From positions 1 through 53,158 of the forward strand of contig CACFNV010000005.1 of NCBI GenBank assembly GCA_902567635.1: a DNA stretch of 53,158 bases, given 5' to 3'. Positions 14,808 to 42,235 of the stretch are shown piece after piece; position 1 is the stretch's first letter; each line of letters opens with the position of its first letter. The position numbers and the translations under genes were made by a program. This stretch comes from an uncultured Alphaproteobacteria bacterium (lineage in GTDB: Bacteria; Pseudomonadota; Alphaproteobacteria; Rhodobacterales; Rhodobacteraceae). Under the pieces are notes generated by a model. That model was given only the letters and a program-made list of their open reading frames with translations. It did not search any database and was not told the origin of the DNA.

Positions 14808-15389
14808 TTATTTGTTTTCTATTTTTAAGAGAGCATTAAAAAATTCGTAAATTTCTTCTTTTTGCCAGTCTATGTCACCTAAAATACGACCCACTTCTTT
14901 TCCTTTAGAACTAACTATTATAGTAGTAGGTAGTCCGATGACTTTATAAGAGATTGCAGTTTTTCCTGATGGATCTCTAAATTTTGGAAGTTCATCAATT
15001 TCGTTCTTAAGAAAAAAATCTTCTATGTGAGAAATTGAGTTTCTACCTGATGCTATTGTAATTATTTCAAGTTTTTCTTTTTTAAATTTTTTTGCTAAAT
15101 GATTGAGAGAAGGCATTTCTTTTTTACATGGTGCACACCAAGTTGCCCAGAAATTAATTATTAAAATTTTTCGTTCAGTATTAATCTCTACTATATTATT
15201 TTGGCTATCTGTAATTTTTAATGACTTGACCTTATTTTTTTCTTTGATAAATAAAAATTTTTTTAGATCATCTTTTATATAGTTTTTTAAACCATTTTCG
15301 TAGATACTGCCTCCAAAAGCGTTAAAAGGTATGAACAATTTGTAAGTAAGGATAAGTAGGAAAAGAAGTGTATTTGAATAGTGTCTCAT
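14808..15389 (-). CDS. tlpA: TlpA/ResA-like thiol-disulfide oxidoreductase
   Basis: A secreted or membrane-anchored thioredoxin-fold protein of 193 residues. ATG 15389 gives an N-terminal hydrophobic signal (SNTLLFLLILTYKLF), then the redox centre WATWCAPCKKEM (Cys85, Cys88) and the cis-proline region GLPTTIIV. Such proteins keep cytochrome c or oxidase assembly cysteines reduced in the periplasm. A TTG at 15413 would add eight residues and run into the argH start region. The divergent argH begins only 27 bases away, so at least one promoter must lie inside a coding region. The tlpA/argH pairing is common in alphaproteobacteria. Confidence 0.88.
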   Translation of the reverse strand: MRHYSNTLLFLLILTYKLFIPFNAFGGSIYENGLKNYIKDDLKKFLFIKEKNKVKSLKITDSQNNIVEINTERKILIINFWATWCAPCKKEMPSLNHLAKKFKKEKLEIITIASGRNSISHIEDFFLKNEIDELPKFRDPSGKTAISYKVIGLPTTIIVSSKGKEVGRILGDIDWQKEEIYEFFNALLKIENK

Positions 15390-15416
15390 ACCTTTGTTAT
15401 AGTGTTGGAACAAAAA

Positions 15417-16815
15417 ATGTCTAATAGGAAAATTTCAAATAAGATGTGGGGAGGACGTTTTAATGATCAAACACTGCCTTTGATGGAGGAGATCAACTCA
15501 TCTATAGATATAGATAAGCGATTAGCTTTAGTTGATATTATGGGGTCGAGAGCTCATGTAAAAATGCTTGCTCAAAGAAAGATAGTTAAACAGGCCACTA
15601 AGCGAAAAATTCTTAAGGGTCTTGATCAGATTGAGAAAGAAATTATTCTAGGTAAATTTTCATACAAAAAATCACTAGAAGATATACATATGAATATAGA
15701 GTCGCGGTTGCATAAAATTATTGGGAATGAAGCAGGCATGTTGCATACGGCTAGATCAAGAAATGATCAAGTTGTAACTGATTTTAGAATTTGGATAAGA
15801 GAATCTATTGACCAAATAAATAAGGAGCTAGAGCTTTTGAAACAATCTTTTGTCGAATTAGCTGAAAAAAACTTTGAGACTATATTCCCTGGCTATACTC
15901 ATATGCAAATAGCTCAGCCAGTAAAATTTAGTCATCATATGCTTGCTTATGTTGAGATGTTTCATAGAGACGGATTGAGATTTCATGAGACAAGAAAAAG
16001 ATTAAATGAATGCCCTCTAGGTGCAGCAGCTTTAGCTGGAACTTCATTTCCAATTGATAGGGAATATACGGCTAAAGAGCTAGGCTTCGATAGTCCAATG
16101 AGAAATAGTATGGATGCCGTTTCAGATAGAGATTTTGTTATTGAGTTTATTTTTAATGCTTCTATCTGCATGGTACATTTTAGCAGATTAGCAGAGGAAT
16201 TAATTCTTTGGAGTTCTTCAGAGTTTAATTTTATTGATTTGCCTGACAATCTTGTTACGGGATCTTCGATAATGCCGCAAAAGAAAAATCCAGATGCTGC
16301 AGAATTGATAAGAGCAAAATCTGGTAGAGTTTATGGAGCATTAATTTCGCAGTTGACTATGATGAAGGGATTACCGCTTTGCTATTCAAAGGATATGCAA
16401 GAGGATAAAGAGTCAGCATTTGATGCCTTTGATACATTGATCCTAGTAATAAAAATTACCAATTTGCTAATTGGATCTATTCAAATAAATAAAGAAAATA
16501 TGGAAAAGCAGGCAGAAAATGGTTTCTCAACCGCTACGGATTTAGCAGATTGGTTAGTAAAAAAACCTTAATATTCCATTTAGAGAAGCACATAGAGTTA
16601 CAGGTAGAATAGTTAATTTTGCATTAAAAAATGACATGAAATTATCAGAAATTGGGTTATCTGATTTAAAAAAATTTGACTCAAGAATTAATGAGGATGT
16701 TTTTAACATCCTTAATGCTAAGAGCTCAGTTGACTCCCGCAATAGTTATGGAGGAACTTCATCAGAGCAAGTTAAAAAGCAATTGCGTTATTGGAAGAAA
16801 CGGCTAAATGATTAA
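15417..16815 (+). pseudogene. argH: Argininosuccinate lyase, reading frame broken by a one-base insertion
   Basis: ArgH splits argininosuccinate to arginine and fumarate. From ATG 15417 the frame shows WGGRF, HTARSRNDQVVTDFR and the signature GSSIMPQKKNPD, then stops at 16569-16571 right after an A7 run (16559-16565). The missing C-terminus resumes one base further on, at 16567: LNIPFREAHRVTGRI down to SVDSRNSYGGT, ending at TAA 16813-16815. Removing one A gives WLVKNLNIPFREAH and a normal 465-residue protein. The tail is otherwise undamaged, so this is a very recent mutation or a base-calling error. An in-frame ATG-free GTG at 15381 was rejected as start. Confidence 0.9.
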
Positions 16816-18924: not shown

Positions 18925-19018
18925 GGGTAAATTTCTATATAGATTTTTTATTAATAATAAAGCAAAGATGACATTTTATAAATATTAATTTTATTTTTAG
19001 AGTAATAAAAAGAAACAT

Positions 19019-34004: not shown

Positions 34005-34745
34005 ATGAGATGGGAAGATGAAGGCTTATTATTAAGTGTTAGGAAATATGGAGAGACTTCAGCACTAATTGAATTATTAACACGTTCACATGGAAAGAGA
34101 GCTGGCCTTTTAAGAGGAGCATTTAAAAAAAATATAAGGCCAATTATCCAGCCAGGAAACCAACTGCAAATAACATGGAGTTCCAGACTGGAACAGAGCC
34201 TGGGTCAATTCAAAGTTGAACTATTAAGGTCAAGGTTTCATTTAATTTCAAGAAATAAAGAGAAAATTCATTTATTAAACTTAGTTTGTACCTTTTGTTC
34301 AGCTTATTTACCAGAGCGTGATTCAGTGAATAATTTATATCAAAGAACGATCCATCTATTAGATTCTGAGAAAGAGATATTAGTAACTTTGTTGTGCTAT
34401 ATTAAATGGGAGATGACTTTATTAAAGGATCTGGGTTTCGGTCTAGACCTAAGAAAATGCGTTGTCACAGGATCTTCTGACTGCCTATCCTATGTATCCC
34501 CTAAAAGCGGATGTGCTGTATCACAGCAAGCAGCAAAAGGATGGGAGGATAGGTTGTTAATTTTACCTGATTTCTTGACTAATAAAGATAAGAATGAGAA
34601 TGTTTCCCCTAAAGGAATTGAGGATGGTTTACTTTTAACAGGCTATTTTCTCAAGAAATGGCTTTCTCCAGTAAAAAAATATAATAGTGAACCACTTTTT
34701 GATACTAGGGATAGACTACTAAATTATTTAAAGTCAAATCTTTAA
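34005..34745 (+). CDS. recO: DNA repair protein RecO
   Basis: Loads RecA on SSB-coated single strands with RecR. It has 246 residues: an N-terminal OB fold (MRWEDEGLLLSVRKYGETSAL) and a helical domain with the zinc-like segment LRKCVVTGSSDC and YVSPKSGCAVS. ATG 34005 lies 3 bases after the DUF1491 stop. Its tail overlaps the convergent mcd gene by 4 bases. In many relatives parC follows here; in this window about 8 kb separates recO from parC. Confidence 0.92.
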   Translation: MRWEDEGLLLSVRKYGETSALIELLTRSHGKRAGLLRGAFKKNIRPIIQPGNQLQITWSSRLEQSLGQFKVELLRSRFHLISRNKEKIHLLNLVCTFCSAYLPERDSVNNLYQRTIHLLDSEKEILVTLLCYIKWEMTLLKDLGFGLDLRKCVVTGSSDCLSYVSPKSGCAVSQQAAKGWEDRLLILPDFLTNKDKNENVSPKGIEDGLLLTGYFLKKWLSPVKKYNSEPLFDTRDRLLNYLKSNL

Positions 34746-35998
34746 ACAAGTAATCGTTTTGCAATAACTTGAGCCTGAATCTCTGCCGCTCCTTCAAATA
34801 TATTAAGTATTCTGGCGTCACAAAGAACTCTACTGATTGGATATTCTAATGCGAAACCGTTTCCGCCATGTATTTGAAGAGAGTTGTCAGCGGCTGACCA
34901 AGCAATTCTGGCAGCTAATAGTTTTGCCATGCCTGCTTCTAGATCACACCGCTTATTTTGGTCTTTTGCTCTGGCTGAACTGTAAGTTAACTGTCTTGCC
35001 ATCATTATTTCAACTGCCATATTAATGAGTTTATCTTTAACTCTGGGAAAGCTTATCAATTTTTCTCCAAACTGTTCCCTTTCAGTGGCGTATTTAAGTC
35101 CTAAATCAAAAGCATTTTGTGCAACGCCAATTGCGCGAGCTGCTGTTTGAATACGAGCACTTTCAAATGTTTCCATCAATTGACGAAAGCCTCTGCCTTC
35201 TTCATTACCCAAAAGGTTTTCTTTCTTTATTTTAAAGTTATCAAAATTCAACTCATATTCTTTCATTCCCCTGTATCCTAAAACTTGAATCTCACCTCCC
35301 TTTATTCCGTCGTTGGGGAAGTCGTTATCTGAATTTCCGCGTATTTTGGGGGCTAGAAACATAGAAAGTCCCTTATAATTACTAAATTCTGAGTTGGTTC
35401 TTGCCAATACGGTCATAAGATCTGCTCTGGCTGCATGCGTTATCCAAGTTTTATTTCCAGTGACTTGGTAGTGATCGCCTACTAGTTTAGCTCTTGTCTG
35501 AAGACTTCCTAAATCAGAACCCACATTAGGCTCGGTAAAAACAGCGGTGGGAATAATCTCACCGTTGGCTATTCTTGGAAGCCATTTTTCCTTTTGGGCA
35601 TCACTACCTCCACAAAGAATAAGCTCAGAAGCTATGTCTGTTCTTGTAGCAAGGCTTCCAACTCCTATATAACCTCTTGACAATTCTTCAGAAACTACAC
35701 ACATACTGATTTTGTCTAGACCTATGCCACCATATATCTCCGGAATTGTAAGGCCAAAAACGCCCATTAATGCTAATTGATCAATAATTTCCATAGGAAT
35801 AAGCTTGTCTTCAAGATGCCAGCTATGAGCATTGGGTTCAATTTTATCTCTGGAAAACTTAAAAAACTGCTCTCTTATTATTGTTTGGTCCTCATTTAGA
35901 CCGTCATTTCCGATAGTTGGAATTGAACTATGTTCTTTAACTAATTTAATAAACTGATTTTTAAGTATTTCAAGTTCATTAATCTCTAAAAATAACAT
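34742..35998 (-). CDS. mcd: Methylsuccinyl-CoA dehydrogenase, dehydrogenase part (split)
   Basis: An acyl-CoA dehydrogenase module of 418 residues. The segments GVFGLTIPEIYGG, EELSRGYIGVGSL, TAVFTEPNVGSDLG, LEAGMAKLLAARIAW, IHGGNGFALEYPISR and LNIFEGAAEIQ (probable catalytic Glu) follow the (2S)-methylsuccinyl-CoA dehydrogenase group, which makes mesaconyl-CoA in the ethylmalonyl-CoA pathway and hands electrons to ETF. Usual Mcd proteins are about 550 residues with an N-terminal domain; that domain is the next ORF upstream, ending at the TAATG where this one begins. Codons also stay open 10 triplets upstream of the ATG. A general acyl-CoA dehydrogenase is the alternative. Confidence 0.85.
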   Translation of the reverse strand: MLFLEINELEILKNQFIKLVKEHSSIPTIGNDGLNEDQTIIREQFFKFSRDKIEPNAHSWHLEDKLIPMEIIDQLALMGVFGLTIPEIYGGIGLDKISMCVVSEELSRGYIGVGSLATRTDIASELILCGGSDAQKEKWLPRIANGEIIPTAVFTEPNVGSDLGSLQTRAKLVGDHYQVTGNKTWITHAARADLMTVLARTNSEFSNYKGLSMFLAPKIRGNSDNDFPNDGIKGGEIQVLGYRGMKEYELNFDNFKIKKENLLGNEEGRGFRQLMETFESARIQTAARAIGVAQNAFDLGLKYATEREQFGEKLISFPRVKDKLINMAVEIMMARQLTYSSARAKDQNKRCDLEAGMAKLLAARIAWSAADNSLQIHGGNGFALEYPISRVLCDARILNIFEGAAEIQAQVIAKRLLV

Positions 35999-36435
35999 TA
36001 TGTTAGTGCTAGAAAAAATCTCAAAAAAGATTTATTTATGTCCAATTCGTCTGGTCTTATAAACTCGTTTTGAGACATCAAGATGCCTCCCCTCAGTTGG
36101 TGTAAATATTCATTGAAACCTAAGATCAATATTAATCTTTCCAATGCACCAAACTTTTTTTCAATACTCAATTCGTAAGCCCATGAACTAATACTCTTCA
36201 ATGCTTCAGTGTAAGTTGCGTACCAAGCTAGTCCATGCAATTTCTTTTGATGAAAATTTTTATCCGTGACCGGGTCACTGTTAATAAGCTTTTTTAGCGG
36301 GCGCTTGAGATTATCGATGTAAGCAGTCAGTTCTTTAGATACAAGAAATGCTTTCTCTATTAAAATCTTTGATTCGATAGCAGAAATTGAGTCATTTACT
36401 TCTGTCAATCTTCTATTAACTGTCAATTCATTCAC
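35998..36435 (-). CDS. Methylsuccinyl-CoA dehydrogenase, N-terminal domain part (split)
   Basis: A 145-residue helical protein. HGLAWYATYTEALKSISSWA, LILGFNEYLHQLRGGILMSQ and EFIRPDELD match the N-terminal extension of methylsuccinyl-CoA dehydrogenase, directly upstream of the matching dehydrogenase ORF. The two share one base (TAATG at 36000-35996). In the 31 bases where both frames are open (36031-36001) lie two A6 runs (T6 on the coding strand); one extra base in either would fuse the frames into a protein of about 570 residues. So it is either a translationally coupled split subunit or half of a frameshifted gene. ATG 36435 is used; TTG 36426 also has ribosome-site support. Confidence 0.78.
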   Translation of the reverse strand: MNELTVNRRLTEVNDSISAIESKILIEKAFLVSKELTAYIDNLKRPLKKLINSDPVTDKNFHQKKLHGLAWYATYTEALKSISSWAYELSIEKKFGALERLILILGFNEYLHQLRGGILMSQNEFIRPDELDINKSFLRFFLALT

Positions 36436-39918: not shown

Positions 39919-40845
39919 TTAAAGCTTTTTCTCTATCTCTGGAACAGCTTTGAATAGATCTTCAACCAATCCAAAATCTGCTACCTGAAAAATAGGCGCT
40001 TCCTCGTCTTTGTTGATAGCTACGATAACTTTACTATCTTTCATTCCCGCTAAATGTTGTATCGCTCCAGATATACCTACTGCTACATAAAGCTCCGGTG
40101 CTACAACTTTACCAGTTTGGCCTACTTGCCAATCATTAGGAGCAAAACCGGAGTCTACCGCAGCTCTAGAAGCACCCACTGCTGCACCCAGTTTATCTGC
40201 AAGTTTTTCAATCACAGCGAAATTTTCCTTACTACCAACCCCCCTGCCTCCTGAAACAATTACCTTAGCTGATGTTAACTCAGGTCTATCATTATCTTGA
40301 ACTTTGTTTTCTAACCAGCTTGAGATCTTATTTTGAATATTTATACTCAACTTTTCTATTTTTGCATTACCTCCTGATGGGGCTGAGTTGAAATTACTGG
40401 TTCTTATTGATACCAGTTTAATTTTGTCTTTACTTTGAACTCTTTGAATAGCATTACCTGCATAGATTGGTCTTTCAAAAGTGTCAGTTTCTATGATTTT
40501 TGACACATCTGAAACTATCATCATATCTAAAATTCCTGCTATTCGAGGGAGCAGGTTCTTGCCAAAGGAACTGGAGGGGACAAAAATGTGTGTGTATTCC
40601 TTTAAAAGTTCAATCAGATCGGCTGAATATGATTCAGCTAGGTTTTCAGAAAGTAGTTCACTTTCAATAACCTTTATCGTGTCAACTTTTTCGATGCTCT
40701 GAAGTTGCTTTGCTGCTTGGTCACAATTGCTTGAAGCACAGAGTACGTCTACAGTCGAAAGCTCGCTTGCAGCACATATAGTTTTGCTAGTTTGATCTTC
40801 AGCCAACGTTCCGTTGTGGATTTCTGCAATAACAAGAATTTTCAT
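39919..40845 (-). CDS. etfA: Electron transfer flavoprotein subunit alpha
   Basis: The FAD-binding subunit of ETF, 308 residues. The N-terminal domain begins [13 protein letters not shown]; the C-terminal FAD domain has [48 protein letters not shown] and [11 protein letters not shown]. It begins one base inside the etfB stop (TAATG at 40845), so the subunits are translationally coupled. Reduced ETF would be oxidised by ETF-QO at 8577-10217. Confidence 0.96.
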
Positions 40846-41606
40846 TAATTTCTCCCTGCATTTTTTTTTATTTTTTCAACCAGCTCATCTACATTTTCAA
40901 CAATTATTCCAGACGCTCTTGTTTCAGGCTCTTTTGTTTCTAAAATTTTTAGGCGTGGTGAAATATCTACCGCCAGATCCTCTGGTTTCATTTCTTCCAA
41001 TGGCTTTCTCTTCGCTTTCATAATGTTTGGAAGACTGGCATACCTTGGTTCATTAAGTCTTAAATCCACTGATACGACTGCTGGAAGGTTAATTTTGATT
41101 GTTTGTAGTCCTCCATCAATTTCACGGGTAACTTTACAATTATCTTTATCTAAATCTATTTCTGAAGCAAACGTCGCCTGAGGCCAATCTAGTTTTGCTG
41201 ACAGCATTTGAGCTGTGGCATTAAAATCATTGTCAATCGCTTGCTTACCACACAAAATTAATTTTGGGTCTTCTTTTTTTACAATTGCAGCCAAAAGATT
41301 GGACACCGTTAATGGTTCAATATCAACATTTACGTCTGTCGACGCAACAATTAAGATAGCTCTGTCAGCTCCCATTGCCAAAGCAGTTCGTAACGTCTCT
41401 TGATTTTGTTGAACTCCAATGGAAACTGCTATTATTTCTTCGGCAACACCCTTTTCTTTGAGGCGTATTGCTTCTTCTAGAGCTATTTCATCGAAAGGAT
41501 TCATTGACATTTTCACATTAGCTAAATCTACACCACTACCGTCAGCCTTTACCTTGGCTTTTACGTTGTAATCTAGAACTCTTTTCACTGGGACTAAAAT
41601 TTTCAT
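40845..41606 (-). CDS. etfB: Electron transfer flavoprotein subunit beta
   Basis: The AMP-binding subunit of ETF, 253 residues. [33 protein letters not shown] and [17 protein letters not shown] are characteristic, and the recognition-loop region [18 protein letters not shown] docks to dehydrogenases. An AAAGG ribosome site precedes the ATG. It accepts electrons from acyl-CoA dehydrogenases, including the split Mcd about 5 kb away. The adenosyltransferase gene lies 68 bases upstream on the same strand. Confidence 0.96.
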
Positions 41607-41674
41607 TTAAAACCTTTAAGTTACAAAATTAACATTCAAAATATGCACTAGTAATAAAGAGGGTACAAGGGATT

Positions 41675-42235
41675 TTACAAGTTTTCTCCTGGTTCCCAAA
41701 GAATTTCAGAAGAATTTTCTTGATTGTCCAACCTTGAAGCTACAAAAAGCCAATCCGATAATCTATTTAGGTATTTCAATGCATTTTGATTAATTTTTTC
41801 TTTCCTATTAAGTGATACGAGACTTCTTTCTGCGCGACGGCAAATTGTTCGAGATAAATGCATGAATGAGGCTGTTTTAGACCCGCCTGGAAGTATAAAG
41901 CTTTTGAGAGGCTGCAAAGTTTTATTCATGGCATCTATATTTGATTCTAATTTTTTAACTTGGTTATTTGAAATTCTAAGTTTTTTTTGTGATTCATTTT
42001 CATCAGGAACGCAAAGATCAGCTCCAAGGTCAAAAAGATCATTTTGAATTTTAGCCAGTATTCCGCTCATTTCTAGGCTAGCATAGTTCTTTACTATTCC
42101 GATACTAGCGTTTAATTCGTCCACGTTGCCGTATGCAATCACTCGCTCGCTATCTTTTGAAACGCGACTTCCATCACCTAAGGCTGTATCGCCTTTATCT
42201 CCAGTTTTGGTGTAAATTTTATTAAGTGTTACCAT
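41675..42235 (-). CDS. pduO: Cob(I)alamin adenosyltransferase, PduO type
   Basis: Makes adenosylcobalamin from ATP and cob(I)alamin. It has 186 residues; KIYTKTGDKGDTALGDG is the ATP-binding start, GNVDELNASIG and RTICRRAERSLV (the arginine helix) complete the site. A PduO enzyme implies B12-dependent mutases such as ethylmalonyl-CoA and methylmalonyl-CoA mutase, which fits Mcd and Mcl1. It is preceded on the same strand by the HIG1-like gene 3 bases away. Confidence 0.94.
   Translation of the reverse strand: MVTLNKIYTKTGDKGDTALGDGSRVSKDSERVIAYGNVDELNASIGIVKNYASLEMSGILAKIQNDLFDLGADLCVPDENESQKKLRISNNQVKKLESNIDAMNKTLQPLKSFILPGGSKTASFMHLSRTICRRAERSLVSLNRKEKINQNALKYLNRLSDWLFVASRLDNQENSSEILWEPGENL

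Follow-up and report, generated by a model that had tools for sequence, protein, structure and literature searches.

The methylsuccinyl-CoA dehydrogenase locus of this uncultured alphaproteobacterium is occupied by two ORFs that, on sequence comparison, together form a single ordinary mcd, the gene for (2S)-methylsuccinyl-CoA dehydrogenase (Mcd), with the reading frame broken by one missing T. The locus lies in a stretch of 53,158 nucleotides, here termed the window, which belongs to a genome, G000, that is 58% complete. Very probably, as judged from comparison with related genomes, this is the one-chain Mcd of the ethylmalonyl-CoA pathway, and one T of a T7 run was lost by base-calling, amplification or assembly error. 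In such a case the organism would have an ordinary one-chain Mcd, the loss of the T from the draft would break the frame after approximately codon 137, and the first out-of-frame stop (TAA) would by chance overlap a native internal Met codon, mimicking a translationally coupled pair.

The 5′ part of mcd, ORF N, spans 35998-36435 on the minus strand, starts with GTG and encodes 145 residues, and the 3′ part, ORF C, spans 34742-35998 on the same strand, starts with ATG and encodes 418 residues, as given in the ORF list of the window. The coordinates agree with the original prediction that the two ORFs share one base in the sequence TAATG and that two six-base runs are present, which on the plus strand are A6 runs at 36013-36018 and 36023-36028. 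The prediction also assigned an Mcd-type N-terminal domain to the first ORF and an Mcd-like acyl-CoA dehydrogenase to the second, and both assignments are borne out by the solved Mcd structure of Paracoccus denitrificans, PdMCD (6es9). ORF N matches this chain solely in the N-terminal extension (residues 54-127, E 5e-14), and the best match of ORF C is the remainder of the chain, the acyl-CoA dehydrogenase core (residues 148-550, E 4e-187). Aligned to this structure, ORF N and ORF C are collinear with it and belong to a single protein. The two differ in that PdMCD is one chain, with 551 residues in the entry, whereas the frame in the window is broken at approximately PdMCD position 130-134.

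ORF C keeps 13 of 13 checked active-site, FAD-contact or catalytic residues from a list given in the available text of PMC5798300, including Arg252, Arg376, Arg421 and Glu535, and all 13 are identical to those of PdMCD. The three arginines for the carboxyl group, the Ala285/Phe287 pocket and the catalytic Glu535 are thereby all kept. An Mcd is recognized by an extension of ~170 residues fused to an acyl-CoA dehydrogenase core, and here both regions are found adjacent and in order, with the fusion interrupted by the one-base shift alone. ORF N gave no NCBIfam or Pfam family for the N-terminal extension at E values up to 0.001, and the surveys of other genomes were for this reason queried with ORF N itself and with an alignment, A1.

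The closest relative, G009 (isolate AG-435-J13; loci L003 and L032), has an unbroken mcd in a single frame of 564 codons, which is 92% identical in DNA to that of the window over the gene and the 44 bases before it. Congeners with names of the form "isolate AG-..." are presumably single-cell genomes; three of six such titles say MAG. The sole gap inside mcd in this alignment is one base at 36023-36028, where the coding strand has T6 in the window and T7 in G009, which supports the suggestion that one base had been lost at one of the T6 runs. The second T6 run of the coding strand, at 36013-36018, is T4-A-T in G009 and was made by substitution, with no change in length. ORF N is 83% identical to its G009 homologue, and its final ~8 codons are outside the native frame. 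Across the break site G009 reads NKSFFKILSSDNIMLFLEI; the native-looking linker with SFFEIF that had been proposed on restoring one T is close to this translation. From the shift to the ATG, the window translates in the native frame as EIFSSTNI and G009 as KILSSDNI. Relative to G009, dN/dS is 0.24 for the N half (20.5 nonsynonymous and 19.5 synonymous changes) and 0.10 for the C half (26 nonsynonymous and 59 synonymous changes), and both halves of mcd were therefore under constraint until recently.

The same comparison bears on the TAATG junction, which had been taken as a possible sign of gene fission giving a two-subunit Mcd with translation coupled through the overlap. Each of the two frames is indeed uninterrupted and corresponds to its own region of Mcd, and a one-base overlap also joins the nearby etfB and etfA genes. 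However, the unbroken gene of G009 has the CATAATG of the overlap too, in frame; thus, the TA-ATG that resembles a coupling signal is inherited sequence, and the junction has gained no new start signal. In the other 15 congeners aligned, there is no TAATG at the break site. When one-base deletions were made in silico in the intact G009 mcd, 228 of 1575 (14%) placed the new stop only a few bases from an ATG in the native frame, a figure that rises to 409 of 1575 (26%) when GTG and TTG are counted too. The adjacency of stop and start in TAATG is within chance expectation. For the Mcd of G009, AlphaFold2 (mean pLDDT 84.8) places the broken segment, residues ~138-147, within two short predicted helices, 135-141 and 144-150 (block pLDDT 79 and 91), rather than in an obviously loose loop.

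Surveys of other genomes also argue against fission, which is the least likely reading of the locus and a very improbable one. Among 61 genomes, G000 and 60 relatives, the N domain was found in 40 and had no match in 21, some of which are incomplete; in all 39 relatives that have the domain, it lies in a stop-free open frame of 542-670 aa. A GTDB search that used just the core half gave 593 matches, and the best 80 of these, six being on the same contigs as congeners in the 61-genome survey, all have frames of 558 aa or longer. Across the class, alignment A1 matched in 161 of the 385 genomes searched; among the 150 matches listed, 145 are in frames of at least 538 aa and five are shorter. The five comprise G000 itself, G326, in which a run of N falls inside the gene, and G150, G163 and G263, which by position reach a contig end. 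One further genome, G161, had been listed with a TAG, and its mcd has a whole frame of 538 aa. Besides G000, no split Mcd in continuous sequence was thus seen among the 39 relatives, the best 80 of 593 GTDB matches and the 150 class matches listed, and a split conserved in the lineage was not observed. Every examined relative with an mcd has an intact gene across the linker, the outcome named beforehand as one that would refute fission. In the literature search, "methylsuccinyl-CoA dehydrogenase" was not found together with "split gene", and no paper naming AG-435-J13 was found.

The mcd locus is not the only place where G000 departs from G009 in this manner. Over ~381 kb of aligned sequence, the two assemblies differ by 193 indels, 174 of which are not a multiple of three, and 26 of these 174 fall 45 or more bases within an ORF of at least 80 aa. 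The clear gene breaks among the 26 are in mcd, argH, sucC and an ABC transporter permease gene, all in homopolymer runs and always with G000 as the broken copy; no clear break with G009 as the broken copy was found in the ~381 kb compared. The argH gene, encoding argininosuccinate lyase (15381-16806 of the window, plus strand), has one extra A (A7 at 16559-16565 versus A6 in G009), which shortens the product to 396 aa from the 470 of G009. It is present in a single copy in the G000 assembly as two abutting pieces that correspond to profile positions 1-375 and 376-454, the final 79 positions of the profile being encoded in a different frame, at 16570-16806. The sucC gene, encoding the beta subunit of succinyl-CoA ligase (G000:C11:19042-20236; L135, L222 and L223), has C9 versus C8 in G009, and this 401-aa gene, also a single copy in the assembly, is cut into pieces that correspond to profile positions 1-296 and 278-385. 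The permease gene (L129, 10293-10750) has two T-run insertions relative to G009, T8 versus T7 and T6 versus T5, 45 bases apart, and is shortened from 253 to 131 aa.

In a count of shortened ORFs, 5 of 312 G009 ORFs have a shortened counterpart in G000 (argH, the permease, mcd, L115 and L180), and 2 of 316 do in the reverse comparison (L207 and L121); of these seven, argH, the permease and mcd are clear breaks and the other four are candidate breaks. An earlier count of broken genes (23 of 312 and 9 of 316) was dropped, as it contained false breaks from far-upstream starts and from indels near 5′ ends. The sucC break is outside the shortened-ORF count, probably because the L135 stretch ends within its ORF, and was found from the indel list. 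Of the remaining indels in the list of 26, those in L131, L201, L212, L214 and L217 are compensated within the gene, and no effect on a gene was assigned to those in L121, the L127 cluster, L130, L135 at 9629 and the window at 18950.

It would be odd for argH, sucC and mcd each to have been split by a one-base change in the same genome; a shared technical cause is the simpler explanation. The mcd gene of the window is probably an ordinary gene with a homopolymer error, and we infer that the base absent from the reads or the assembly is present in the cell. According to excerpts of PMC8443664, a single-cell workflow averages 3.0 indels per 100 kbp, and the workflow behind G000 may differ; in the portion of PMC5519541 consulted, an indel-rate figure was not found. 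If G009 came from a single-cell workflow, it has fewer clear breaks than the PMC8443664 benchmark, as excerpted, predicts. From the lack of clear breaks in G009, it follows that G000 is either the poorer assembly or the carrier of real mutations.

The second of these possibilities, a fresh and real mutation, is the main rival to technical error. Replication slippage in the sampled cell or strain would recently have turned T7 into T6, and mcd would now be inactive or greatly reduced. Homopolymer runs commonly mutate in this way, and they are frequent in the window, with 259 of at least six bases. Four broken genes in G000 and no clear one in G009 would also fit decay in G000. Nevertheless, a recent mutation is unlikely: the same cell would have to have lost argH and sucC as well, two core genes that the assembly contains once each, both halves of mcd still show constraint, and the ethylmalonyl-CoA pathway, a route for acetyl-CoA (C2) assimilation, appears to be operating. 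Crotonyl-CoA carboxylase/reductase (Ccr) is above the cut-off and whole in G000. For isocitrate lyase, none of the 22 genomes searched (G000, 13 congeners and eight more from the class) passes the cut-off, and six, including G000, have weak partial matches; five of 14 control genomes pass. The presence of Ccr with isocitrate lyase below the cut-off therefore makes the ethylmalonyl-CoA pathway the likely C2 route, in which case a working Mcd would be expected, as far as genomes that are incomplete allow.

A frame that is truly shifted could also yield full-length Mcd by recoding, either through −1 ribosomal slippage or through RNA polymerase slippage that adds a U in the T6 runs. The frame of ORF N reads TCT TTT TTG, which contains a zero-frame T TTT TTG heptamer, the right frame for such a slip. 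As reported in excerpts of PMC5574713, insertions made during transcription cluster in A/T runs and become more frequent as the runs lengthen, and according to excerpts of PMC3017870, eight genes of Blochmannia vafer have homopolymer frameshifts that may be corrected in this way. The frameshifts described there for Blochmannia and Buchnera resemble those of G000 in being one-base homopolymer indels in otherwise intact genes. They differ in having longer A/T tracts, 9 to 12 bases in Blochmannia, and in that some shifts are conserved between species (excerpts of PMC3017870), whereas the mcd run is short, with six bases, its shift is kept by no relative examined and the companion break in sucC involves a C run. 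A conserved slippery site with a shifted second frame was not found, as 16 of 16 aligned congener genes are in one frame and the T run at the break site is missing in 15 of the 16. In addition, restoring the frame at the companion breaks in argH, sucC and the permease gene would mean taking a base out, which transcription rarely does in homopolymer runs: the deletions reported in the available text of PMC5574713 are few, 15 (21%) in Buchnera and 3 (<1%) in E. coli. Recoding at mcd is accordingly improbable, more so than a recent mutation. It is equally hard to credit that the mcd, argH, sucC and permease shifts are all real and tolerated by this marine lineage, whether through slippage that yields full-length enzymes or, for Mcd, as two co-translated chains that assemble.

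Taken at face value, the record would introduce a false new two-subunit Mcd, and argH and sucC would seem to be missing from the lineage, as if it were auxotrophic for arginine and had an interrupted TCA cycle; once the shared pattern of one-base homopolymer slips is recognized, such false inferences are prevented. A real two-chain Mcd, if true, would be informative because the extension is described, in excerpts of PMC5798300, as mimicking a dimer-dimer interface. Elsewhere in the window, at 39919-42235, etfA and etfB overlap by one base and a gene for a PduO-type cobalamin adenosyltransferase adjoins them. The etf pair and the PduO gene would fit an ETF-dependent Mcd and a B12-dependent mutase step.
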